From assembly GCF_964019385.1 (NCBI RefSeq), contig NC_088651.1, positions 5,029,110-5,093,109 on the forward strand: DNA of 64,000 bases, in the 5' to 3' direction. Of the stretch, positions 8,017 to 61,200 are shown piece after piece (position 1 is the stretch's first letter; each line of letters begins with the position of its first letter). The translations under genes were made by a program, and so were the position numbers. Origin of the DNA: Sycon ciliatum. Taxonomy: Eukaryota > Porifera > Calcarea > Leucosolenida > Sycettidae. The notes below the pieces were generated by a model that saw only the letters and a list, made by a program, of their open reading frames with translations, was not told the DNA's origin and made no database searches.

Positions 8017-8160
8017 CGCAAACTACTTCAACTAAGCAGAAGACATTCCAAAACAAACCTGAAACACACTGTCAAAGATGCTGTCACGTTCAAAAACTAG
8101 CTCGATCACGAGTGAGGTTGCCCCCGTGCTCGAACCCAGTATAATAAGGGGATCGGTCTA

Positions 8161-8298
8161 TTCCCGTAGCTATGCAGAAGACGTTACTTCAGTAACGTCT
8201 GGCGCTAGCCAGGGTCCACACAGCTTTAATTCCCGTAGCTATGCAGAAGACGTTACTTCAGTAACGTCTGGCGCTAGCCAGGGTCCACACAGCTTTAA
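8161..8298. repeat. 69-bp tandem repeat (type A), 2 copies
   Basis: Two units at 8161 and 8230, period exactly 69. Each contains the perfect inverted repeat ACGTTACTTCAGTAACGT. Three identical-period units lie at 41082-41288, a diverged unit lies at 5153, another at 44555, and a reversed unit at 56330-56393. The array always stands at one end of a Helitron-like block, so it is probably a terminal or subterminal element feature. It is open in one frame only because 69 is a multiple of three. Confidence 0.85.
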
Positions 8299-8802
8299 TT
8301 TGGTGTTTGTGTGTTTGTTTGTGTCACGCCTGGCGACATCCCGTATCTGTCCCGTACTGTACCGTACCAGCAAAGACAGCTGGCCACAATATTTTTGTTT
8401 GTTTGTGCCATCGACATGCCTGGCGCTATCCCATACCTGTCCCGTACCATCAAGAGTACGGTACCATCAAGAGTACGGTACTATCAAGAGAATGAGTATA
8501 TATGCGAAGTGTATCGGGGGAATGCATTCAGTGCAGTAACATTTTGTGTGTGCGAGGCCGAGATCCCACTAGCAGGCTGGCTGGGCCGCCTGTCGACCAG
8601 CCCGGGAATCGCATGTAGGCCGATAGCATAATAATTATAACGTATATACAGTCATGTAGATGTATAGCAGGGAGTCATATTATGTAAACGACTCCCTGCT
8701 GTATGGGGAGATTTTCTGGAAAGAAATACGAAGAAGGGAGACGAGTAAATGCAATCAGAATGTATGTTAGTTGCCGTCAGTATAATAATAAGAAGAAGAA
8801 CT

Positions 8803-10584: not shown

Positions 10585-13059
10585 AATACTTGCCCTAGGC
10601 TACGCTTGGAGGATCGAGATTGAATTAAAATTAATAACAAAGAATTGCCAACTCTGAGTGCTTAAAAACATTTGAAAGTAAAAACGAGGAACACACGCCT
10701 CTTGCCGTACTTGACATTTGACGGAATCACGGCTGCCATCCAGAGCTCAAGAGGAGCACCTCGCATCTTCCACTCGGCAGGCTTGCAATGAAGTGAATCA
10801 GTCAAAGGTCAAATTCGGCAAGAGGCGTGTTTTCCTCATTGGAACAATCATCTTCATGACTAACCGGATTGCAGTCGTGAGTCAGTCAAGTGCCAAGTTC
10901 GGCAAAAAGCGTGTGTTCCTCGGTGTAACAACCAGTTACTTCATTACTGATAGCGCGGAAGTCGCAACTTCGAAACTATTGTGAGTCAAATCAATGGTTT
11001 GTAAAACAGTTCTCCGTTAAAACACCATAATTATGAATGTTTACCCTATTAACCACAAGCTAAACGGCTTAGACCGACTCATGAGAAATGCCAAGTTTTC
11101 AAGACCTTCGTAATTTAGGATACCAAAGTCAATGCTTGCCATTCTGCCCCTTTTCTGGTGGGAGATCGTGTCGAAGGACACGCGTAAAAACAGATAACTG
11201 CACACTCGGGTAACGGAAAAACAAAATTTTATTGCCAAAAAAAGTCTCTATATGAACTAACATGTGCGTTGCAGGAATCGAACCTGCATGTGCACCTTGT
11301 AATACGTACTCGGAGGTAGTATATGTACAAGAAACAAGATATTCAAACACGCCAACACAGCACTATTACCTTTAAAGGCCGTAGTTGAACCTGCATATTA
11401 GCTCTCTATTTCAACTTAACACCTGTCTCATTGTAGAAAAAATATTAATTTAATAGTGAAAAACTTCGAAACCAAACAAAAGATCACCAGCGTGATGAAG
11501 AAAGGGTCGCAAAAGCCGAACACCCGTCATGTTCAGTAGAAACGATGAGTGACTGGTAGGAGTAAGTGGATTACGCTGGAAAAATGTTTGGCATAATCAG
11601 GTCCATTTTGCGAAGGAGCATAGAATTGTATCGAAAAAACGATGGGCAGATGCCCAATGAGCATGCTATACACACCTGCTATTGAAGGCCTAATAGAAGG
11701 CCCCTACATCTGGCATTTTGGGAAGTAGCATAAAAGGTATCGGAAAAACAAGGGCAGATGCCCAATGAGGATGCTATACACACCTGCTATTGAAGGCATA
11801 ATAGAAGGCATAATAGAGAGGATCCCCTGGTGCATAATCTGGTCATTTTCCGAGCATAATCCTCTGACCCCTAGTGACTGGGCAGCTTGGGAACACATGA
11901 AAGAACACTCTCGGCATATTTCTATCCACGACTACTCAGCCGATCGACTATATCTTATTTCATTCATTTCTCCCAACTCCTGGTCCATGACCAATGGCCA
12001 CCTTTAAAATTACAGTCAAACCTCTTCAGGAGGAAGATGAAGGGACATAATTATGTTATTCTGTTCGCGTTAACGGGAGCTCTTCTTATCCATATGTTTT
12101 ACCTAGTGAAATCACAGGGTTTTATCCAATACAGTTACGAATATTGGTTCTTCTTAGGCAAATATTTGTCTTATTAGTGTTCTTCCTAACGAGGTTTCAC
12201 TGTATTTCACTTTTTTTCTATTTTTAAATATGTTCACATAGCCAGCTCGAAAAGAACAAGCGGAAAGACAATGGTGCGGAGACTAACACAAACGTGCAAA
12301 CTCATGAGCAGGCGCTTCACCGAGACGCAGCAGGGATTGTGAGGCATTGATGACCCTGCCGACCTGAGGCTACTATACAGACTTACGACTGCCATGCGGC
12401 GCAAATGAGGAGCACGCCGCACCTTTCACTCGTCAGGCTAGCAAGAAATTTAATCAGTGAAAGGTCAAGTTTGCCAAGAGGCTTGTTTAACTCGATCGTT
12501 GGAACAATCATCTTCATGACTAACACCGCCGAAATTGCTACTTCTTAGTTCGTGTCGTTGTCCTTCACCCGAACCTCCGAATAGTTGTTGAAGATGACAG
12601 CGTGAATATTTACTGGCTCTCACCGTGTGTAGAGTACAAATCCATGACGACTCTGACTCAAGCTGATAACTGGGGATTAACGAGGTGTTTGTCGCGCTGG
12701 AAACTAAGTGTCTCTGTTATTTTGTATCCCTGTTGATGGTTTGCTCTGGCGAGCCGTATACATGTATAAGTGGTGCAGTTCAGGCACAATCTTCCTCAGC
12801 CTACTCACATTTTTCCGATGAGGCGTGGATTCCGCGGAACACTGTATATTGAGCAGGGACTGGTGCTTTCTTACAGGTTTGCTGAGTGGAAGGTGCGACG
12901 GGACTCCTCGTGTGCTCCGGATGAAAAAAAATATTTTTTGTCAAACAAGTCTCCATTGAAATATCATAATAATGAGTGTTTACCCTATTAACCGCTCCCA
13001 CAAACTGAACGGCTTAGACCGACTCCTCAGAAATGCCAAGTTTTCAAGACCTTCCTAAA
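10585..13059. repeat. higher-order repeat, U3'-U4-U1-U2-U3
   Basis: A long uninterrupted stretch of background that shows the block order: a U3-related part (10680-11040), U4 with GGAATCGAACCTGCAT (about 11275), U1 twice in tandem (about 11580-11690 and 11695-11830), U2 (11870-12030), then U3 (12135-13020). One full cycle from U4 to the next U4 (13474) is about 2.2 kb. No convincing gene. Confidence 0.8.
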
Positions 13060-28326: not shown

Positions 28327-28459
28327 AGAGAGCGTGTGTGGGCAGGCGTGTGTTTACCGCCATATTGCCAGGTGTGTCTTTACCACCATATTTATCAACC
28401 ATAAGAACAGCTGCAGTGGTGTCTTCAATTTCATTCTCCCGAGTCAAGCTCCGTATGAA

Positions 28460-28528
28460 GACATCCAAGAAGAAGATTGCCTGATGAGTCCAGCGGGGAC
28501 GAAACGTACCTCGCAATCGAGCTATGTC
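28460..28528 (+). ncRNA. hammerhead ribozyme (type I), copy 1
   Basis: Core CTGATGA (28481-28487) and GAAA (28501-28504) are joined by helix II GTCC/GGAC with loop AGCGG. Helix I is GATTGC (28475-28480) with GCAATC (28513-28518), extended beyond an internal loop by GACAT/ATGTC. Predicted cleavage is after 28512. The triplet is CTC instead of GTC as in copy 2; this loses the second pair of the very short helix III. Confidence 0.8.
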
Positions 28529-28811
28529 GTTGCTGTGTCATCATCTGTGTGCCATGCGCTACTTGATGTACCAGCCTGCTATGCCGGATACCGCCAGCCA
28601 TGCATCGACCAGGCGCCAGGCGCGAACTGATGGTGGTGGTGGTGAGAAGGAGAGCTCTGTGCCAGAACTTTGCAGCCTAGAGAGCGTGTGTGGGCAGGCG
28701 TGTGTTTACCGCCATATTGCCAGGTGTGTCTTTACCACCATATTTATCAACCATAAGAACAGCTGCAGTGGTGTCTTCAATGTCATTCTCCCGAGTCAAG
28801 CTCCGTATGAA

Positions 28812-28880
28812 GACATCCAAGAAGAAGATTGCCTGATGAGTCCAGCGGGGACGAGACGTACGTCGCAATTGAGCTATGTC
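28812..28880 (+). ncRNA. hammerhead ribozyme (type I), copy 2
   Basis: Same layout 352 bp on: CTGATGA (28833-28839), helix II GTCC/GGAC, cleavage triplet GTC ending at 28864, then GCAATT pairing with GATTGC (one G-U). The core reads GAGA instead of GAAA, which should impair catalysis. The consensus of the two copies has every conserved position. Helix III with its loop is ACGTACGT, self-complementary, as in hammerheads that act as dimers. Confidence 0.75.
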
Positions 28881-29144
28881 GTTGCTGTGTCATCATCTGT
28901 GTGCCATGCGCTACTTGATGTACCAGCCTGCTATGCCGGATACCGCCAGCCATGCATCGACCAGGCGCCAGGCGCGAACTGATGGTGGCGGTGGTGAGAA
29001 GGAGAGCTCTGTGCCAGAACTTTGCAGCCTAGAGAGCGTGTGTGGGCAGGCGTGTGTTTACCGCCATATTGCCAGGTGTGTCTTTACCACCATATTTATC
29101 AACCATAAGAACAGCTGCAGTGGTGTCTTCAATTTCATGCTATT

Positions 29145-31490: not shown

Positions 31491-32145
31491 AGTGACAAAC
31501 TTGGAAACCAAACAAAACATCGCCAGCGTGCTGGAGAAAGGGTCGCAAAAGCCGAAGACCCGTCATGTTCAGTGGAGATGATGGGTGACTGGTAGGGGTA
31601 AGTGGATTATGCTGGCATAGTTTTTGGCATAATTAGGCCCTTTTGAAGAAGGAGCATAGAATGGCCTCCGAAAAACAAGGGCAGATGTCCAATGAGGCTG
31701 TTATACACATCTGCTATTGAAGGCATAAGTGTTGGCATAATCAGGTCCTTTCTGAGAAGGAGCATAAAATGGCATCCGAAAAACAAAGGCAGGTGCCCAA
31801 TGGGGCTGTTATATACACACTTGCTATTGATGGATTATTTATAGGGCTTATTGTCGATTTGAAATATTATTATTATTTTGGCAGCCACTATAGGACGTCT
31901 ACCAACAATTCAGCGACTGCTTTTGAATTTGGTTATCATCTTGCATACTATTGTCTTGTACTTCATCAATTCTCCCAGTCCACATAATGGCAATGGTTTG
32001 AGTCCTTTTTTCATGACCATTATCATTATTCTGTTCTTTTGGCCAGATTTGATATTTTCGGTGAAGCATATAAGTATAAGCATACTCGGAGGGAGTTGTG
32101 GTTGCTCGTGAGAGTGCTCAATACACCACGGTGTAGAGCCTAGTA
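31491..32145. repeat. background U1 and CR1-derived stretch
   Basis: GACAAACTTGGAAACCAAAC, then U1 in two tandem copies (about 31680 and 31790), the CR1-derived TTTGAATTTGGTTATC part (31850-31965), and about 170 bp not matched elsewhere here except near 52390-52470 (TTTTTTCATGAC). No gene. Confidence 0.65.
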
Positions 32146-32177
32146 CACACACTTAAGAGGGACGAAAAGCGTTTCTT

Positions 32178-32219
32178 CTGTAACTCTGAGTTTCACGGTT
32201 TTAACCGATCATCAGACAG
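32178..32219 (-). ncRNA. hammerhead ribozyme candidate in the left terminal copy
   Basis: Reverse complement of the motif at 39599-39640, unchanged in every core and stem base: CTGATGA at 32215-32209, GAAA at 32194-32191, predicted cleavage between 32182 and 32181. It is antisense to the RT frame. Confidence 0.65.
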
Positions 32220-32287
32220 CAACTTGACTACAAGTTTCAGAAGATAAGATTGATATAGGCTGCAAGCTTGGATCATAGCGCGAATGG

Positions 32288-33837
32288 ATGATCCGGGCTG
32301 ATAGTGTAATTGTAAAAATGCGTGAGTTGGTTGATGGGGTGCAAAAATCCAAAAGCGAAATCGGAAGAATCAGCAAAACGATATTATCAGGAATTGTCCG
32401 AGATGTAAGGGAAGAGTTATCACTTAACTCCTGGAAGAATACAGCCGCAGTGATTGACTGGTTCCAAGCAATCGAGAGGGAGCCGGAGTGTGCATTTGTC
32501 TGTTTCGATATTGTGGAATATTACCCATCCATTTCGGAAGATCTCCTTCTGCTTGCTATCGAGTTTGCTGAACAGTACACCGATATTAGCAAACAAGACA
32601 GAGACATCATCCTACATTCGCGGAAGTCGCTATTATTCAGTGGAGACAATACTTGGATGAAGAAGAACGGAAGGGGACTATTCGACGTCACGATGGGATG
32701 CTTCGACGGTGCCGAAGTATGCGAGCTAGTTGGGACGTATGCACTGTCTACGATTGCACACGAAATGAACAGCAGTGACGTCGGACTGTACCGCGATGCC
32801 GGCCTAGCAGTGCTACGAGACGTGACAGGCAGCGAAGCAGATCGAATGAGGAAGACGGTCTGCAAGATATTCAACAACCTCGGACTACGACAAACCATCG
32901 ACACCGGTATGAAGGTTGTGAATTTTCTGGACGTGACGCTGAACCTAGCAGACGGAACATATCGTCCGTATAGAAAACCGAACGATACATTGGTCTATGT
33001 CCACAGCCAATCGAACCATCCGCCAACAATCATCAAGCAAATACCGAAAGCTATTAGTAGGCGGCTAACCGATATTTCATCCAACCAAGATGCGTTCAGA
33101 GAAGCCGCACCGCTATACAACAGCGTGCTTAGGAACAGTGGCTATACCGAAGGACTAGAGTACTTGGGAGAGAGAGACAAGGATTCAAGCAAGAAAAAGA
33201 AAAACAGGCGGCGGAATATCATCTGGTACAACCCGCCATTCAGCAAGACAGTGGCCACAAACATCGGACAGAGATTCTTGCGATTAATCGAAATACACTT
33301 CCCCGCCGGATCCAGACTACACAAGATCTTCAACCGGAATACAGTTAAAGTAAGCTATAGTTGTATGCCGAATATGTCTGCAATGGTCAAGTCACACAAC
33401 AACTCAGTTAAACGGAAAAGTGGAAACAACGATGGACAGCCCAAGGAAAGACGATGCAACTGCAGAGACAAAGCGCAGTGTCCGATGGACGGCAACTGCC
33501 AAATCAGCTCTATTGTGTACAAGGCAACCGTCCAAATAACCGGAGAGGACAGACAGAAGGAGTATATCGGCCTTACGGAACCAGAATTCAAGAAGAGATA
33601 CGGCAACCATTTGACATCATTCAGACATGAGAGACATGAGAAGAGCACAGAACTATCAAAGTGTGTCTGGAACCTGAAGCTTCAAAACAGCGAGTACAGT
33701 CTTGGTTGGTCAGGTATCGCCCAGACTCCAGGTTACAGTAACATAACTAAGCGCTGTCCTCTGTGCCTAAGAGAGAAGCTGGAGATCCTACAGGCGGACA
33801 AGCGTGTCAACATCAACAAAAGATCGGAGCTAGTTAG
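32288..33837 (+). pseudogene. Penelope-like RT with GIY-YIG endonuclease, part before Gypsy-2
   Basis: About 516 residues. RT motif A: VCFDIVEYYPSI (about 32500). Motif B: TMGCFDGAEVCELVG. Motif C: YRDAGLAV (about 32788), where related proteins have YRDDGL, so one catalytic Asp is Ala. Then KVVNFLDVTLNL and YRKPNDTLVYVHSQSNHPP. Further on come a Cys cluster CNCRDKAQCPMDGNC (33454-33500) and GIY-YIG with KATVQI, EYIGLTEPEFKKRYGNH and ELSKCVWNLK. The frame is cut at RSELVS (33837); the last codons lie at 39274-39333. Compared with full PLE proteins the N-terminus is short. No frameshift, but the motif C change argues against activity. Confidence 0.8.
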
Positions 33838-34050
33838 TGTAGTATTGTTTCTTCTTCAGTCCAAAACAACAAGACTCCAGAGTCAAACCATGCACAGCAA
33901 CTAAAAGCCGCGAAGTCCGTTTCACGCGCGCGCGGGAAACTGCACATGCTACATGCATAACATCACGATGTACTACTACTACTACATGCATCATGAATGT
34001 CTGGAGTGGCCAAGGAATGCCACAGCGCGTAGGAACAAGTGAACACTACA
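33838..34050 (-). repeat. Gypsy-2 3' LTR
   Basis: 213 bp; on the plus strand TGTAGTATTG to GAACACTACA. It includes CGCGCGCG and a (TAC)n stretch. Confidence 0.9.
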
Positions 34051-39060: not shown

Positions 39061-39273
39061 TGTGGTATTGTTTCTTCTTCAGTCCAAAACAACAAGACTC
39101 CAGAGTCAAACCATGCACAGCAACTAAAAGCCGCGAAGTCCGTTTCACGCGCGCGCGGGAAACGGCACATGCTACATGCATAACATCACGATGTACTACT
39201 ACTACTACATGCATCATGAATGTCTGGAGTGGCCAAGGAATGCCACAGCGCGTAGGAACACGTGAACACTACA
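39061..39273 (-). repeat. Gypsy-2 5' LTR
   Basis: 213 bp; differs from the left LTR at three sites (TGTGG for TGTAG; AAACGG for AAACTG; AACACG for AACAAG). The target duplication GTTAG follows. Confidence 0.9.
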
Positions 39274-39477
39274 GTTAGCAAGTGCAGGCATGAAAATAAG
39301 TACTACCTCTCAAAATTCTCACCATCAGCCGTCACATAACCTTCTCACCACTCGCAGTCGGAGGTGATGTGCTGCTCATAATTACCGAATTGTCCTTCTT
39401 CTTGCCTCCCTCAGAAGAACATGTGGTCGCATGAGCCTAGGCCTAAAGTGTATTCTTTTTTTTGCGCCTATTTTTGC
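39274..39477 (+). pseudogene. Penelope-like protein C-terminus and 3' region
   Basis: After the GTTAG duplication the PLE frame resumes with KCRHENKYYLSKFSPSAVT and stops at about 39333. About 145 bp of non-coding 3' sequence follow, up to the inverted terminal copy at 39478. Confidence 0.8.
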
Positions 39478-39598
39478 ACCCCATCAACCAACTCACGCAT
39501 TTTTACAATTACACTATCAGCCCGGATCATCCATTCGCGCTATGATCCAAGCTTGCAGCCTATATCAATCTTATCTTCTGAAACTTGTAGTCAAGTTG

Positions 39599-39640
39599 CT
39601 GTCTGATGATCGGTTAAAACCGTGAAACTCAGAGTTACAG
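39599..39640 (+). ncRNA. hammerhead ribozyme candidate in the right terminal copy
   Basis: CTGATGA (39603-39609) and GAAA (39624-39627) enclose helix II CGGT/ACCG with loop TAAA, closed by a U-U mismatch. Helix III is three pairs, ACT (39627-39629) with AGT (39633-39635). Triplet GTT gives cleavage after 39636. Helix I is CTGT (39599-39602) with ACAG (39637-39640). All core bases are present. Short helix III and a location in a terminal copy agree with the hammerheads of Penelope-like elements. Confidence 0.7.
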
Positions 39641-39672
39641 AAGAAACGCTTTTCGTCCCTCTCAAGTGTGTG

Positions 39673-41081
39673 TAATTATAAACATAATTGGCTGTTTTCT
39701 CGAGCATTCTGCGAGCATCGTCTAGAGCATATTCTAGTCATTTCTTCAGCATAATCCTCTTACCCCTAGTGACTGGGCAGCTTGGGAACACTTGAAAGAA
39801 AAGACTCAGCACATTTCTACCTACGACCACTAAGCCGATCGACTAAATCTTATTTCATTTATTTCTCTCAACTCCTGGTCCATGACCAATGGCCACTTTC
39901 AAACTATTTATTATTAAACATAATATTAATGATATCAATGATCAATAATTATGTCGATGGTGGCTAGGCATTGGCGGATAAAGCTCGAAAAGGTGTCGGA
40001 TTCTGCTAGAAAAGCAGAGAACAAATTGGAAGAACCATACAAACCTGTTTTATGGTGGGCAATTCCTCGAATTCTCCTCCATTTCTTTATCCACGTACTA
40101 ATCATGCATCAAACTTACCAGAAAAGTACCGAATTCTGGCAATCTTTTTGTATGCCGGCATAATCCGCATATACCTTATGGTGGTGGCCACACTTGCCTT
40201 AGTCTACGCTTGAAGGATGGCGAAGAATTGCCCACTCTGAGTGCGGAAAAACATTTGAAAGTAAAAACAATTGTGAAGTTGGCAGTTGCAACGAGGAACA
40301 CACGCTTCTTGCAGTACTTGACACTTGACGGACCCACGGCTGCAATCCGGAGCCCACGAGAAGCACCTCGCACCTTACACTCGGCAGGCTTCCAAGAAAG
40401 TGAATCAGTCAAGGGTTAAGTTCGGCAAGAGGCGTGTTTTCCTCGTTGAAACAATCATCTTCATGACTAACAGGGGCGAAATTGCCACTTCTAAGTTCGT
40501 ATATCGTTGTCCTTCACCCGAACGTGTGACTAGTTGTTGAAGGTGACAGCGTCGTGAATATTTACTGGCTCTCACCGTCTGTTGAGTGCAACTCCATGAC
40601 GACTCTGACTCTAGCTGTTACCTGTGGGTTCACGAGGTGTTTGTCGCGTTGGAAACTAAATGTATCTGTAAGTTTGTATCCCTGTTGATGGTTTGCTCTG
40701 GCGAGCCGTATACATGTATAAGTGGTGTAGTTCAGGCACAATCTTCCTCAGCCTACTCAAACTTCTCTGATGAGGCGTGGATTCCCCCGAACACTGTGTA
40801 TTGAGCAGAGATTGTTGCTTTCTAGCAGGTTTGCCGAGTGGAAGGTGCGACGGGATTCCTCATGTGCTCCGGATGGCAGTCGTGAGTCTGTCAAGTGTCA
40901 AATTCGGCAAAAAGCGTGTGTTCTTCCGTGAACCAACCAGTTACTTCATGACTAATACCGCGGAAGTCGCAACTTCTACACAATTTTGAGTCAAAACAAT
41001 TGTTTGTAAACCAGTTCTCCATTGAAACATCATAATTATTAGTGTTTACCCTACCAGTTCTCCATTGAAACATCATAATTA
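39673..41081. repeat. higher-order repeat U2-MITE-U3
   Basis: U2 at 39770-39900, an hAT-type MITE (39965-40177, flanks ATGGTGGC and ATGGTGGT), then the U3 group (40320-41060), which ends in a duplicated CCAGTTCTCCATTGAAACAT. The layout parallels 9760-11000, with the MITE at the same site, so the MITE inserted before the unit was copied. Confidence 0.75.
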
Positions 41082-41288
41082 TTCCCGTAGCTATGCAGAA
41101 GACGTTACTTCAGTAACGTCTGGCGCTAGCCAGGGTCCACACAGCTTTAATTCCCGTAGCTATGCAGAAGACGTTACTTCAGTAACGTCTGGCGCTAGCC
41201 AGGGTCCACACAGCTTTAATTCCCGTAGCTATGCAGAAGACGTTACTTCAGTAACGTCTGGCGCTAGCCAGGGTCCACACAGCTTTAA
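41082..41288. repeat. 69-bp tandem repeat (type A), 3 copies
   Basis: Units at 41082, 41151 and 41220, virtually identical, each with ACGTTACTTCAGTAACGT. Marks the left end of Helitron-like block 2. A TTTG microsatellite follows (41293-41343). Confidence 0.85.
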
Positions 41289-42080
41289 TTTGGTGTTTGT
41301 TTGTTTGTTTGTTTGTTTGTTTGTTTGTTTGTTTGTTTGTTTGTGTCACGATTGGCGCTATCCCGTATCTGTTCCGTACCGTACCGTACCAGCCAAGACA
41401 GCTGGCCACAACATTTTGGTTTGTTTGTGCCATCGGCATGCCTGACGCTATCCCGTACATGTCCCGTACCATCAAGAATACGGTACAATCAAGAGAATGA
41501 GTATATATGCGAAGTGTATCGGGGGGAATGCATTCAGTGCAGTAACATTTTGTGTGGATTTGTGTGCGAGGCCGAGATCCCACTAGCAGGCTGGCTGGGC
41601 CGCCTGTCGACCAGCCCGGGAATCGCATGTAGGCCGAAAGCATAATAATTAACGTATAAAGATGTATAGCAGGTAATCGTATTATGTAAACGACTCCCTG
41701 CTGTGTAGGGAGATTTTCTGGAAATTAATACGAAGTAGGGAGATGTGGAAATGCAATTAGACTGGACGTTAGTTGCCGAATGGGTGACATGATGCGTCAG
41801 CAAAAACAACCTTTAGAAGAGAGATCCCGTCGTCTCCAAAATAATCCTGAACGGGCGAGTCAGCGCCGGTCACAGGAAACGTCGGAAGAGAGATCCCGTC
41901 GACTCCAGAACGTCCGTGATCGGCAGAGTCAGCGCCGGTAACAGTAAACGTCGGAAGAGAGATCCCGTCGACTCCAGAACATTCGTGATTGGCAGAGTCA
42001 GCGCCGGTCACAGGAAACGGCAGGACAGACATCGCGTCGACTCCAGAACGCCCGTGATCGGCAGAGTCAGCGCCAGTCAC
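41289..42080. mobile_element. Helitron-like block 2, left part
   Basis: TTTG repeat, CGTACC-rich part, GCCGAGATCCCACTAGCAGG stretch, hairpin sequence (TAGCAGGTAATCG ... CGACTCCCTGCTG, 41665-41705) and then the 69-bp type-B repeat from 41781. The last has the best-preserved coding frame: MRQQKQPLEERSRRLQNNPE, several units, then stops. The same order is seen in block 1. Confidence 0.5.
41781..42080 (+). pseudogene. start of an arginine-rich repeat protein (type-B repeat)
   Basis: From an ATG at 41781 a frame reads 23-residue units ending RRSQETSEERSRRLQN, with two stops in the third unit and then further units. Related N-terminal repeats are known from Helitron-encoded proteins of invertebrates. 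Only the repeat part is present; the region where helicase or Rep domains would follow is taken by unrelated sequence. Confidence 0.5.
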
Positions 42081-44324: not shown

Positions 44325-46757
44325 AGGAAACGTCAGGACACACATCCTGTCGACTCCAGAACGCCCGTGATCGGCAGAAACGAGCCAGGTGCGGGATAGC
44401 GCCAGGCATGCCGATGGCACAAACAAACAAAAAATGTTGTGGCCAGCTGTTTGTGGCCAGCTGCCTTTGATGGTACGGTACGGGACAAATACGGGGTAGC
44501 GCCGGGCGTGACACAAAAAAATTAAAAATTAAAAATAAACAAAAAATATTAATCCCGTAGTAATGCAACAGACGTTACTTCAGTATCGTTTGGCGCTAGC
44601 CAGGGTTCACACGGCTTTGGCACGTCACATGCATGATGAGCAAGCAAAAAAGCATAGCGTAGGGCCCTGAGCTTCCAAGCTCTCTCGTTTGGTATTTGTT
44701 TGTTTGTGTGGTTTGTGTGTTTGTTTGTTTGTTTGTTTGTTTGTGTCACGCCTGACGCCATCCGTATCTGACGGCAAAAAAGCATAGGATGTTATAAATT
44801 TTTCAATTCTCCTTTTTTTCAGGCATATCCTGGGATTCGAACCCGCACTATCGCCCTACATGCATTCCCCCATACACTTCGCATTCATACCCATTCTTCC
44901 AAGTTGCTTCACGTTAATCTTGCGTTTGAAAGCCCTATTTGAATATTGCGGGCAGCTAGACCGTGTCGTATTACCCTCGATCGTACCTGTCCCGTACCTA
45001 TTCCCTACCGTACCGTGCCATCAAAGATGGCTGGCCACAATGCATATTCAAATAGGGCTTTCAAATGCAAGATCACGATGTGAAACAACTTGGAAGAATT
45101 AGTATGTATGCGAAGTGTATCGGGGGCTGCATGCAGGGCGCGCGATAGTGCGGGTTCGAATCCCAGGTTTAAAAAAAGGATTTTTTTTAAGAAAACATCC
45201 CTATGCTTTTTTTTGTCTAGGTCATCAAGGCAAAAAAGCATAGCGCAGGGCCCTGAGCTTCCAAGCTCTCTCGTTTGGTATTTGTTTGTTTGTGTGTTTG
45301 TTTGTTTGTTTGTTTGTGTCACGCCTGGCGCTATCCCGTATCTGTCCCGTATCTGTCCTGTATCTGTGACTACAAAGGCTCTACAGGATTGTACATAACA
45401 GCTGTCCACAATATTTGCGGGCTCCTGTATCTGTCCCGTACCGTACCAATATTTGTCGTATTATGTACACGACTCCCTGATGTAGAGGGAGATTTGGAAA
45501 GAAATAGGAAGACGAGAAGGAAATTAAATTAGAATAGACGCCGAATAGGTGATAGGATGCGTCAGCATAAATAGCGTCAGCATAAACATACATGTACTTT
45601 GGAAGAGAGATCGTATCGTCTCCAAAATAAGCGTGAACGAGCGATTCAGCGCCGGTCACAGGAAACGTCGGAAGAGAGATCCCGTCGACTCCAGAACCCC
45701 CGTGATCGGCAGAGTCCGCCGCTCCCAGGCAACGTCAGGACAGACATCCCGTTGAGTCCAGAACGCCCGTGATCGGCAGAGTCTAAGCCGGTCCCAGGAA
45801 ACGTCAGGACAGACATCCCGTTGAGTCCAGAACGCCCGTGATCGGCAGAGTCAGCGCCGGTCCCAGTGAACGTCAGGACAAACATCCCGTCGACGCGCAG
45901 AAAAACTAAATCTGCAGCCTCTTTTGCCGTCGGACAGGATACGTATTATAGGAGACTGTAAAGTTATGTAATGTCCAAATTTCCACGTGAGCAGCAGGTC
46001 ACTCGCGTTGATTCTTCGACGTGCGAGCCAAATAACGCGAGCTGAACTTTCGAGTCGCAGACATCCGGTCGACGCGCAGAAAAACTAAATCTGCAGACTC
46101 TTTTGCCGTCGGACAGGATACGTATTTTAGGAGACTGCTAAGTTATGTAATGTGCTCCACAGGCAACCAATGCATTCGGCGTCGTCATTGGCTCAACAGG
46201 TCAATGTACATGTATTACTACAAAAAGGCCAGAAAATCCGATTACTGTATTAAAATCAACTAATTTTCGCTGGCGATTTAATTTCGCTGATTTCGCCGCT
46301 TGGTACCAACCGGCCAAAGTAAATCGCAGGCCACAGTTTGTCATATAGGCAAATGATGCATGATTGAGCAATGGATGCATGTGAGAGCAAAAATACCGAT
46401 CGATTTCAAATTTGACGTGAAATTGCGCGTCACTTCGGAAACGAGAGAGCTTGGAAGCTCAGGGCCCTACGCTATGCTTTTTTGCTTGCTCATCATGCAT
46501 GTTTTTGCAATACAATGATGTGGCCAATCAACGGAAAAAAAACATTTCCATCAGTTCTTATAACATGTACGATGAGCTAGGCAAAAAAGCATAGCGTAGG
46601 GCCCTGAGCTTCCAAGCTCTCTCGTTTGGTATTTGAATGTGTGTTTGTTTGTTTGTTTGTTTGTTTGTTTGTTTGTGTCACGCCTGGCACTATCCCGTAT
46701 CTGTCCCGTATCTATCCCGTATCTGTGACTACAAAGGCTCTGCAGGATTGTACATAA
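44325..46757. mobile_element. Helitron-like block 2, middle part
   Basis: Type-B repeat remnant (44326-44385), a diverged type-A unit (44555), GTTT microsatellites (44697-44745, 45282-45320, 46637-46676), the fold-back 44770-45225, type-B units from 45560 to 45890, and a 180-bp direct duplication (GTCGACGCGCAGAAAAACTA at about 45890 and 46070). 45388-46440 recurs at 48991-50020. Coding stretches break after at most about 50 codons. Confidence 0.55.
44770..45225. repeat. fold-back with inverted tRNA-like segments, copy 2
   Basis: Arms about 200 bp with GGGATTCGAACCC (about 44831) and its complement GGGTTCGAATCCC (about 45152). The spacer is shorter than in the 9.1-kb copy. Same centre with CTCGATCGTACC. 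Confidence 0.75.
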
Positions 46758-58234: not shown

Positions 58235-61200
58235 GTAAAACAAAAAATATTATTGCGAAAAAGTCTCTTTCAGAACAAACATGCGCGCTGCAGGAATCGA
58301 ACCTACATAGACACCTTGTGATAGGTACCATAAAGTAGTACATGTACAAGAAACAAGATACATGTATTCAAACACGCCAACACAGCACTGTTACTTTTAA
58401 AGGCCGTATTTAAATGTGCACATTGGCTTTTTCTTTCGACTTAACACCTGTCTCATTGTAGAAAAATATTAATTTAATAGTGAGAAACTTGGAAACCAAA
58501 CAAAACACCGCCAGCGTGCTGGAGAAAGGGTCGCAAAAGCCGAAGACCCGTCATGTTCACTGGAGATGATGGGTGACTGGTAGGGGTAAGTGGATTATGC
58601 TGGCATAATTTTTGGGATAATAATGTTCTTTTGAAGAAGGAGCATAGAATGGTATCCAATAAACAAGGGCAGATGCCCAATGAGGCTACGGAAAAACCAA
58701 ACATTATTGCAAAAAAGGTCTCTTAAGAAATAATCATGTGCGTTCCAGGAATCGAACCTGCATACATGTAGATACCTTGTGATACGTACTCGGAGGTAGT
58801 ACATGTACAAGACACCCGATATTCAAACACGCCAACACAGCACTGTTACCATTAAAGGCCGTACTTGAACGTGCATATTGGCTCTTCTTTCCACCTGGCT
58901 CACTGTGGAAATTAGTAACACACTTCGAAACCAAACAAAACATCGCCAGTGTGCTCGAGAAAGTATCGATAAAGCCGAAGACCCAAAACAATTGTGTGTA
59001 AAAGCAGTTCTACATTTAAACATCATACGTGTTTATCCTTTTAACCGCTCCCACAAGCTGAACGGCTTCAACCGACTCGTGAGAAGTGTAAAGGCTTCAA
59101 GACTTTCGCTATTCAGGATACGAAAGTAAATGCTGGACATTGTCCCAAAATACCTCGGCGTCTTGATCGATGAATGAATGGCCTGGATACCGCAAATTGA
59201 CCTGTCCATCGCACGAACTGCTAGGAAGATCCGTAATCTGTGCCGGGCGCGACGCTGTCTCACTCTTGCTAGTCGAATCAAGTGTAATCGCTCCCACAAC
59301 GTGGACGGCTTAGAACAGCCCATGACAAGTGTCAAAGACATTGGCTATCTAGGATACGAAAGTCGTAGCTTGCCACTCTGCCCTTTTTCCGGTTGGTGAT
59401 CGTGGCGAAGGAAGTGCGTAAAAAAACAGGAAACTGCGCACTCTGATTACGGTAAAACAAAATATTTTGCGAAAAAGTCTCTCTCAGAACAAACATGTGC
59501 GCTGCAGGAATCGAACCTACATAGACACCAGGTGATAGGTATCAGGAGGTAGTACATGTACAAGAAACAAGATACATGTATTCAAACACGCCAACACAGC
59601 ACTGTTACCTTTAAAGGCCGTATTAGAACTTGCACATTGGCTTTTTCTTTCGACTTAACACCTGTCTCATTGTAGAATAATATTAATTTAATAGTGAGAA
59701 ACTTGGAAACCAAACAAAACACCGCCAGCGTGCTGGAGAAAGGATCGCAAAAGCTGAAGACCCGTCACGTTCAGTGGAGATGATGGGTGACTGGTAGGGG
59801 TAAGTGGATTATGCTGGCATAATTTTTGGGATAATAATGTTCTTTTGAAGAAGGAGCATAGAATGGTATCCAATAAACAAGGGCAGATGCCCAATGAGGC
59901 TATTATGCACGCCTGCTATTGAAGGCCTAATAGAAGGCCTAATTTTTGGCATAATCAATCACATTTTGAGAAGGAGCATAAAAGGCATCCGAAAAACAAG
60001 GGCAGATGCCCAATGAGGCTGTTATATACACACCTGCTATTGAAGGATCGTACATAGGGCTTCTTGTCGATTTGAAATATTATTTTGGCAGCCATTATAG
60101 GCCATCTCCCAAAGGTTCAGCGTTTGCTTTTGAATTTAGTATTCCTCTTGCATATTATTGTCTTGTGCTTTCACAAACCTCGAAGTCCACATCATGGCAA
60201 TGGGCGGAGTACAACTCCAGGACGACTCTGACTCAAGCTGCTACCTGGGAATTCAGTCACTTCACGATATCGCAACTTCTAAGTTCGTATTGTTGTCCTT
60301 CACCCGGACGTGGGACCAGTTGCTGGAGGTGACAGCGTTGTGAATATTTACTGGCTCTCGCCATCTGTCGAGTAGAACTGTGTGATGACTCTGATTCAAG
60401 CTGCTACCTGGGGCTCCAGTTCAGGACCTTCGCTATCTAGGTCACGAAAGTCGATGCTTGCCATTCTGCCCCTTTTCTGGTGGGAGATCGTGGTGAAGGA
60501 CGCGCGTAAATAAAACAGGTAACTGCACACTCTGATTACGGAAAAACCAAACATTGTTGCAAAAAGAGTCTCTTCATTATTCATCATGTGCGTTCCAGGA
60601 ATCGAACCTGCATACATGTAGATACCTTGTAATACGTACTCGGAGGTAGTACATGTACAAGACACCCGATATTTAAACACGCCAACACAGCACTGTTACC
60701 TTTAAAGGCCGTAATTGAACGTGCATATTAGCTCTTCTTTCCACCTGGCTCACTGTGGAAATTAGTAACACACTTCGAAACCAAACAAAACATCGCCAGT
60801 GTGCTCGAGAAAGGATCGATAAAGCCGAAGACCCAAAACAATTGTTTGTAAAAGCAGTTCTACATTTAAACATCATACGTGTTTATCCTTTTAACCGCTC
60901 CCACAAGCTGAACGGCTTAAACCGACTCGTGAGAAGTGTACAGGCTTCAAGACTTTCGCTATTCAGGATACGAAAGTAAATGCTGGACATTGTCCCAAAA
61001 TACCTCGGCGTCTTGATCAATGAACGAATGGCCTGGATACCGCACATTGACCAGTCCATCGCACGAACTGCTAGGAATATCCGTAATCTGTGCTGGGCGC
61101 GACGCTGTCTCACTCTTGCTAGTCGAATCAAGTGTAATCGCTCCCACAACGTGGACGGCTTAGAAAAGCCCATGACAAGTGTCAATGACATTGGCTATCT

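Follow-up and report, generated by a model that had tools for sequence, protein, structure and literature searches.

How does a tandem repeat that carries a ribozyme in each full unit enter a genome, and what kind of machinery takes it there? The question is raised by an array of 352-bp units in the 64,000-nucleotide stretch of Sycon ciliatum DNA analysed here (the window), which lies on C10 of a 538-Mb genome. TRF places the array at 28327-29138, with a period of 352, 2.3 copies and a 98% match. A sequence-only reading had described it as a 352-bp tandem with a hammerhead in every full unit, and this description is borne out by TRF and by matches to the Rfam model Hammerhead_1. The repeat, which we call family A, has a unit GC content of 52.8%. 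Its features in the window are as follows, S and L being two sites in the unit at which arrays end elsewhere in the genome (see below).

28327..28678, plus strand: unit 1 of the 352-bp candidate retrozyme array (family A), from TRF and a search of the own genome
28395..28407, plus strand: S site (unit 69-81), from the outer ends of arms in other copies of the first sample
28433..28447, plus strand: L site (unit 107-121), from the outer ends of arms in other copies of the first sample
28475..28518, plus strand: type I hammerhead, copy 1, RF00163, 24.6 bits
28512..28513, plus strand: predicted cleavage junction in unit 1 (unit position 186/187), by its place in the Rfam alignment
28679..29030, plus strand: unit 2 of the array, 98.6% identical to unit 1
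28827..28870, plus strand: type I hammerhead, copy 2, RF00163, 29.6 bits
28864/28865, plus strand: predicted cleavage junction in unit 2, by its place in the Rfam alignment
29031..29138, plus strand: partial unit 3, abutting the flank at the L site (unit ~108)

The BLAST match of the partial third unit extends to 29141 with one mismatch. A 152-aa ORF spans the array, and read-through of the repeated units stays open for at most 164 codons.

The helix and core motifs of the hammerhead (GATTGC/GCAATC, CTGATGA, GTCC/GGAC, ACGTACGT, GACAT/ATGTC) were all located as the sequence-only reading had given them, and the junction that it placed at 28512/28513 agrees with the site predicted from the Rfam alignment. 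The deviations it had pointed out are also real: copy 1 has CTC in place of GTC at the cleavage triplet, which breaks one helix III pair, and copy 2 has GAGA in place of GAAA in the core; an altered helix I, GCAATT, is an additional change in copy 2. The gathering score of Hammerhead_1 (RF00163) is 34 bits, and both window copies are below this cut-off, with 24.6 bits (E 0.15) and 29.6 bits (E 0.0032; both for the whole window). The cut-off is passed by intact copies elsewhere in the genome, which reach 35.4 bits (L012, L014, L024, L084). The consensus had been called canonical, and indeed 95 of 105 complete hammerhead copies from 36 loci, the window's two among the 105, are one identical, canonical hammerhead.

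A genome search with one unit as the query returned at least 209 matches, partial ones counted (from 40 scored of 1,172 first-look candidates); the element is dispersed. Because of these matches, and because intact copies pass the Rfam cut-off, the hammerhead array is more than a chance resemblance. Of 38 loci fetched, L010 and L028 were left out of the counts as segmental duplicates of L009 and L018. L010 is a relative of the window locus at a distance of 106 kb, with 98.5-99.5% identity including the flanks and with one unit fewer (2.3 units in the window vs 1.3 in L010), which means that the copy number shifted after the duplication. Over 349 sites of 86 full units, the mean number of differences is 1.7 within an arm, 2.5 between the arms of an insertion and 4.1 between insertions; with so few differences at each of these levels, the copies of family A are evidently young. 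A search of a phage sequence collection gave 0 matches. Four of 20 hammerhead matches with partial model coverage were considered as possible Penelope elements and rejected, as L082, L083 and L085 are relatives of a 226-bp family (see below) and L084 belongs to family A.

By its sequence, the element appears to fit the metazoan non-LTR retrozymes. These elements, known from coral, mussel and axolotl (PMC7229834, in part), likewise have a type I hammerhead, tandem units of a few hundred bp, dispersed copies and target-site duplications (TSDs), and the axolotl retrozyme shares the weak palindromic helix III (same source, in part). Family A consists of type I hammerhead units in tandem, within the range of about 150-450 bp, in dispersed copies whose TSDs, where present, are longer than 4 bp. 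It is the tandem type I hammerhead units, the dispersed young copies and the TSDs that support the earlier suggestion of a candidate retrozyme. Unlike the GC content below 50% given, as a descriptive trait, for metazoan non-LTR retrozymes in the part of PMC7229834 consulted, that of the unit is 52.8%, and head-to-head arms with paired fixed ends are, by comparison with the same part, described here alone.

These arms are best seen across the 36 loci, which resolve into 38 clusters. Left arms are on the minus strand and right arms on the plus strand, each arm being tandem, so that the arms stand head to head; 25 of the 38 clusters have such a minus-left/plus-right pair, and the remaining 13 are one-armed or ambiguous. 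Such an arrangement is expected when both cut strands are elongated from their 3' ends with sense RNA as the template. The outer ends of the arms sit at two sites in the unit, S at 69-81 (mean 75.6) and L at 107-121 (mean 112.7), the ranges having been fixed after a first inspection of the ends in the first sample. In that sample, every two-armed insertion with classifiable ends (21/21) has one S and one L end, with L at the left in 12 and S at the left in 9. Four of the 25 two-armed clusters have an end outside both ranges (the second cluster of L016, L040, L043 and L046). When clusters are joined by hand, two more S/L insertions appear, namely L031 (75/112) and L016 (73/111, across a 0.48-kb interruption).

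A second sample was drawn with the unit of L084 as the query, which led to 14 new loci; pieces of 10 were fetched, both sides were seen in nine, and the ends were classed by eye, reusing the ranges of the first sample. All six classifiable two-armed insertions are again S/L; one of the seven two-armed insertions has an S end, with the opposite end truncated at 36, which is neither site. Two insertions are one-armed, with ends at 117 and 64, and at the tenth locus, also two-armed, one end was seen, at 111. In total, 27 of 27 classifiable two-armed insertions of the two samples are S/L, to which the two hand-joined S/L cases may be added, with one L/L and no S/S; random pairing of 27 S and 27 L ends would give mixed pairs throughout with a chance of 7e-8. 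The L/L case is L084 (C7:28791500-28798500), an older insertion of family A; both of its outer ends are L, it lacks a clean TSD, and it was reached by another route than either sample.

Direct repeats in the flanks score 8.3 on average over the 38 clusters, vs 2.0 in 30 shuffles (shuffle maximum 2.9). Among the 24 two-armed cases measured, 18 have a TSD of at least 8 bp and six a shorter one; the lengths are 12 bp in eight cases, 13 bp in five, 14 bp in two, and 9, 11 and 22 bp (the last a microsatellite) once each. L024, outside these 24, has a TSD of 13 bp by the flank-repeat scan. Several TSDs are microsatellite sequence. Since the left and right flanks share direct repeats, the whole composite appears in most cases to have been inserted once.

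The two arms of an insertion also share alleles. At eight variants, each found in at least three insertions, the left arm matches the right one in 148 of 149 comparisons and in 16 of the 17 that are informative, where shuffling gives a mean of 123 and a maximum of 134 in 5,000 trials; an earlier arm comparison had used six of these eight. With all 18 variants, rare ones included, the agreement is 321/328 (informative 16/23; shuffled mean 296, maximum 307). In L024, a 1-nt deletion is present in the full units of either arm. When units of the same insertion are compared, 151 of the 355 pairs that include a minor allele agree, compared to 8% in shuffles (maximum 14%). Alleles common to both arms would fit a circular template, and the incomplete agreement of arms and units suggests that later mutation or a mixed template was also at work. 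A dimeric circle in L024 was considered and rejected, as its G193A sits in a CpG and the copies of A5G are five units apart.

At the inner junctions, where the arms meet, the left and right coordinates are uncorrelated (r 0.03, n=25); 16 junctions have an overlap of 1-6 bp, five are without overlap, and four contain 3-8 bp of filler. At the start sites, the overlap between target and RNA was measured in 13 insertions with clean TSDs. It is 1.27 nt vs 0.75 nt simulated when gaps are taken as zero (null maximum 1.23 of 400), and 0.54 vs 0.75 nt expected when gaps are taken as negative. Long homology to the target is absent at the start sites, and small homology is possible; a firm claim of starts free of microhomology was rejected, as a simulated null with consistent treatment of gaps does not exclude microhomology. 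When the fold of one natural unit is predicted as a circle, S falls within a small hairpin (63-81) and L is placed at a large loop (102-114); the predicted stability of this fold is no greater than that of shuffles (z +1.5). Inverted repeats at 46454-46612 of the window and at L014:970-1136 match microRNA models below their cut-offs. The latter is a head-to-head junction, and microRNA-family matches at arm junctions, being below cut-offs, were rejected and taken as hairpins formed by inverted arms.

This anatomy resembles that of Penelope-like elements. The purified Penelope (Poseidon) protein of Anolis cuts both strands and extends them, has a preference for AT-rich ATT sites, and begins copying at two positions inside the RNA that are non-homologous to the target and that bound a 30-40 bp tail (PMC11167929, in part). 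The pLTRs of Penelope in Adineta are inverted and in most cases head-to-head, and one of them bears the tail (PMC3846280, in part). The two end sites of family A, about 37 nt apart, are like the RT start sites and the tail of those elements (PMC11167929, PMC3846280, both in part). Shared as well, as far as these partial sources go, are a tail carried by one of the two inverted ends, the head-to-head order, TSDs and the hammerhead, and the trinucleotide repeats that serve as some of the family A targets. The combination of inverted head-to-head ends with one 30-40 bp tail was found in 27 of 27 classifiable cases, L084 being the exception. There are also differences: the units seen here leave no space between them for an RT/endonuclease gene, the TSDs are mostly 12-14 bp as opposed to 8-10 bp in Adineta (PMC3846280, in part), and the homology-free start of the Anolis enzyme (PMC11167929, in part) is not clearly reproduced in family A.

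Given the units, the ribozyme, the head-to-head arms with their TSDs, the S/L pairing, the alleles shared between arms and the uncorrelated inner junctions, we propose, with a probability of roughly 0.73, that family A is a non-autonomous 352-nt retrozyme and that Penelope-like machinery reverse-transcribes a single, perhaps circular, RNA with both target strands as primers. The arrays would be transcribed and the transcript cut into units by the hammerhead, probably acting as a dimer, since its helix III is short and palindromic; the units would then be closed into circles. An enzyme that we infer to be a Penelope-like RT-endonuclease would cut both target strands about 12 nt apart, leaving 3' overhangs, and each 3' end would prime inside the same RNA, presumably at the same time, one at S (unit ~75) and the other at L (unit ~112). 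As the two cDNAs travelled around the template, tandem copies would arise on each strand, and the cDNA ends would be joined at variable places, yielding head-to-head arms between TSDs. The sequence-only reading had ascribed the copying to the machinery of Penelope-like elements; the insertion ends fit this indirectly, when read against PMC11167929 and PMC3846280 (both in part).

Priming of the same kind, on both strands and for the same element, may have used a linear multimeric transcript as the template, which we regard as possible, if doubtful. In vitro, the Anolis protein still inserts RNA with a dead hammerhead, and unprocessed RNA is its main substrate (PMC11167929, in part); furthermore, variants recur within one arm (A5G in two units five apart in L024, C123G in two units in L012), and the agreement between units of one insertion, in only 151/355 minor-allele pairs, is also in line with a linear RNA. 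The common variants present in both arms (16/17 informative) and the L024 deletion point the other way, although uniform source arrays could mimic such sharing, so that it is not decisive. That the unit should be a pseudo-LTR belonging to an autonomous Penelope-like element, and the arrays solo pLTRs, appears unlikely, even though Penelope elements are reported in the partial sources to have head-to-head arms, a tail, a type I hammerhead and TSDs. Units directly adjoin each other in the 38 fetched loci, and because the largest gaps, 0.48 kb (L016) and 0.27 kb (L017), are too short, an RT gene would not fit between the units of these loci.

LINE-type TPRT with twin priming would likewise leave arms head to head with a single TSD, and it makes use of microhomology; the small excess of overlap at the start sites, when gaps are taken as zero, fits the latter. 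In twin priming, however, the 3' end is fixed and the second start varies, whereas in family A both starts are fixed and paired, and poly(A) was not seen at the ends inspected in the first sample; we consider this route quite improbable. Ordinary satellite DNA, amplified by unequal exchange and with inversions, would agree with the tandem copies and with the change in unit number between the duplicated window locus and L010, but the arrays are short and dispersed, their outer ends are fixed, and TSDs surround whole arrays, which makes a satellite origin hardly credible. Snap-back self-priming of cDNA, proposed for the Penelope palindromes of Adineta (PMC3846280, in part), would also place arms head to head; as the inner coordinates of the two arms lie 11-163 nt apart in the 25 junctions, with no correlation between them, we see almost no chance that it made these arms.

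The S/L signature is not a property of every hammerhead repeat in this genome. A second dispersed family of tandem type I hammerheads has a unit of 226 bp (L050:928-1553; L069, L070, L078 (C189)), with 41 copies within one 9.5-kb stretch. In this family, 25 of 29 outer ends are at unit 224-226 and 27 of 28 clusters have one arm, in a count from which nine loci (long arrays or repeats of others) were left out and in which about seven loci (L052, L071-L076), having flanks in common, are not independent of each other. The main 3' end is 13 nt beyond the predicted cleavage site, and the family lacks the S/L signature. Judging from this contrast with family A, the routes by which hammerhead repeats enter one and the same genome may differ. 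A fragment of the 226-bp family, about 95-105 bp long, is also found in L071-L077, L079 and L081, inside repeats with common flanks.

The window has an RT-like ORF of its own:

32288..33904, plus strand: RT-like ORF, 538 aa, from the ORF list and its relatives

This ORF has YRDA where its relatives carry YRDD, and its C-terminus is, as we take it from the motif, GIY-YIG-like; that it is Penelope-like is our guess. Pfam gave nothing above cut-off for the ORF or for four relatives, PF26215 and PF28514 are precomputed domains in many of the relatives, and a profile search against solved structures found nothing significant (best E 0.11). A structural model (mean pLDDT 75) has weak matches to telomerase and other polymerases, with query TM 0.20-0.36 and a best E of 7e-6 among the 50 matches listed. 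Pieces from both ends of the RT-like element near 32144-34050 recur at 39061-39273 and 39470-39674 (98.6 and 99.5%, one of them inverted) and are perhaps a deleted, rearranged copy of it. A tandem of 108-119 bp, with about two units and no Rfam match, occurs at three places in the window (11604-11809, 31624-31830 and 59836-60087) and is possibly another small tandem element, and a 69-bp repeat with 100% identical units has two copies at 8160-8300 and three at 41081-41290.

The element itself fits a known kind of retrozyme, and the new part is the anatomy of its insertions. Penelope has been named a strong candidate for the mover of retrozymes, and both this mover for animal retrozymes and the circle as its template were proposed in 2020 (PMC7229834, in part). 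The main text of that paper contains neither 'inverted' nor 'head-to-head', and the part consulted does not describe this anatomy; among the titles and abstract openings surveyed in open-licence literature, none mentions retrozymes with fixed ends in pairs or with arms set head to head. The insertion ends of family A provide evidence in cis for Penelope-type two-strand priming, extending the two-site start of the Penelope protein in vitro (PMC11167929, in part) to single insertions that use both sites as a pair, and they turn the question of the mover into one of counts, which can be made in any retrozyme-bearing genome. Tentatively, and at rather less than even odds, we suggest further that S and L are each occupied by a different subunit of a Penelope-type RT dimer, which would extend the two cut target strands simultaneously, in a double rolling-circle reverse transcription on one circular RNA. 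If true, this would explain why only one of two inverted Penelope ends has a tail, and retrozymes would be circular-RNA parasites of Penelope elements.
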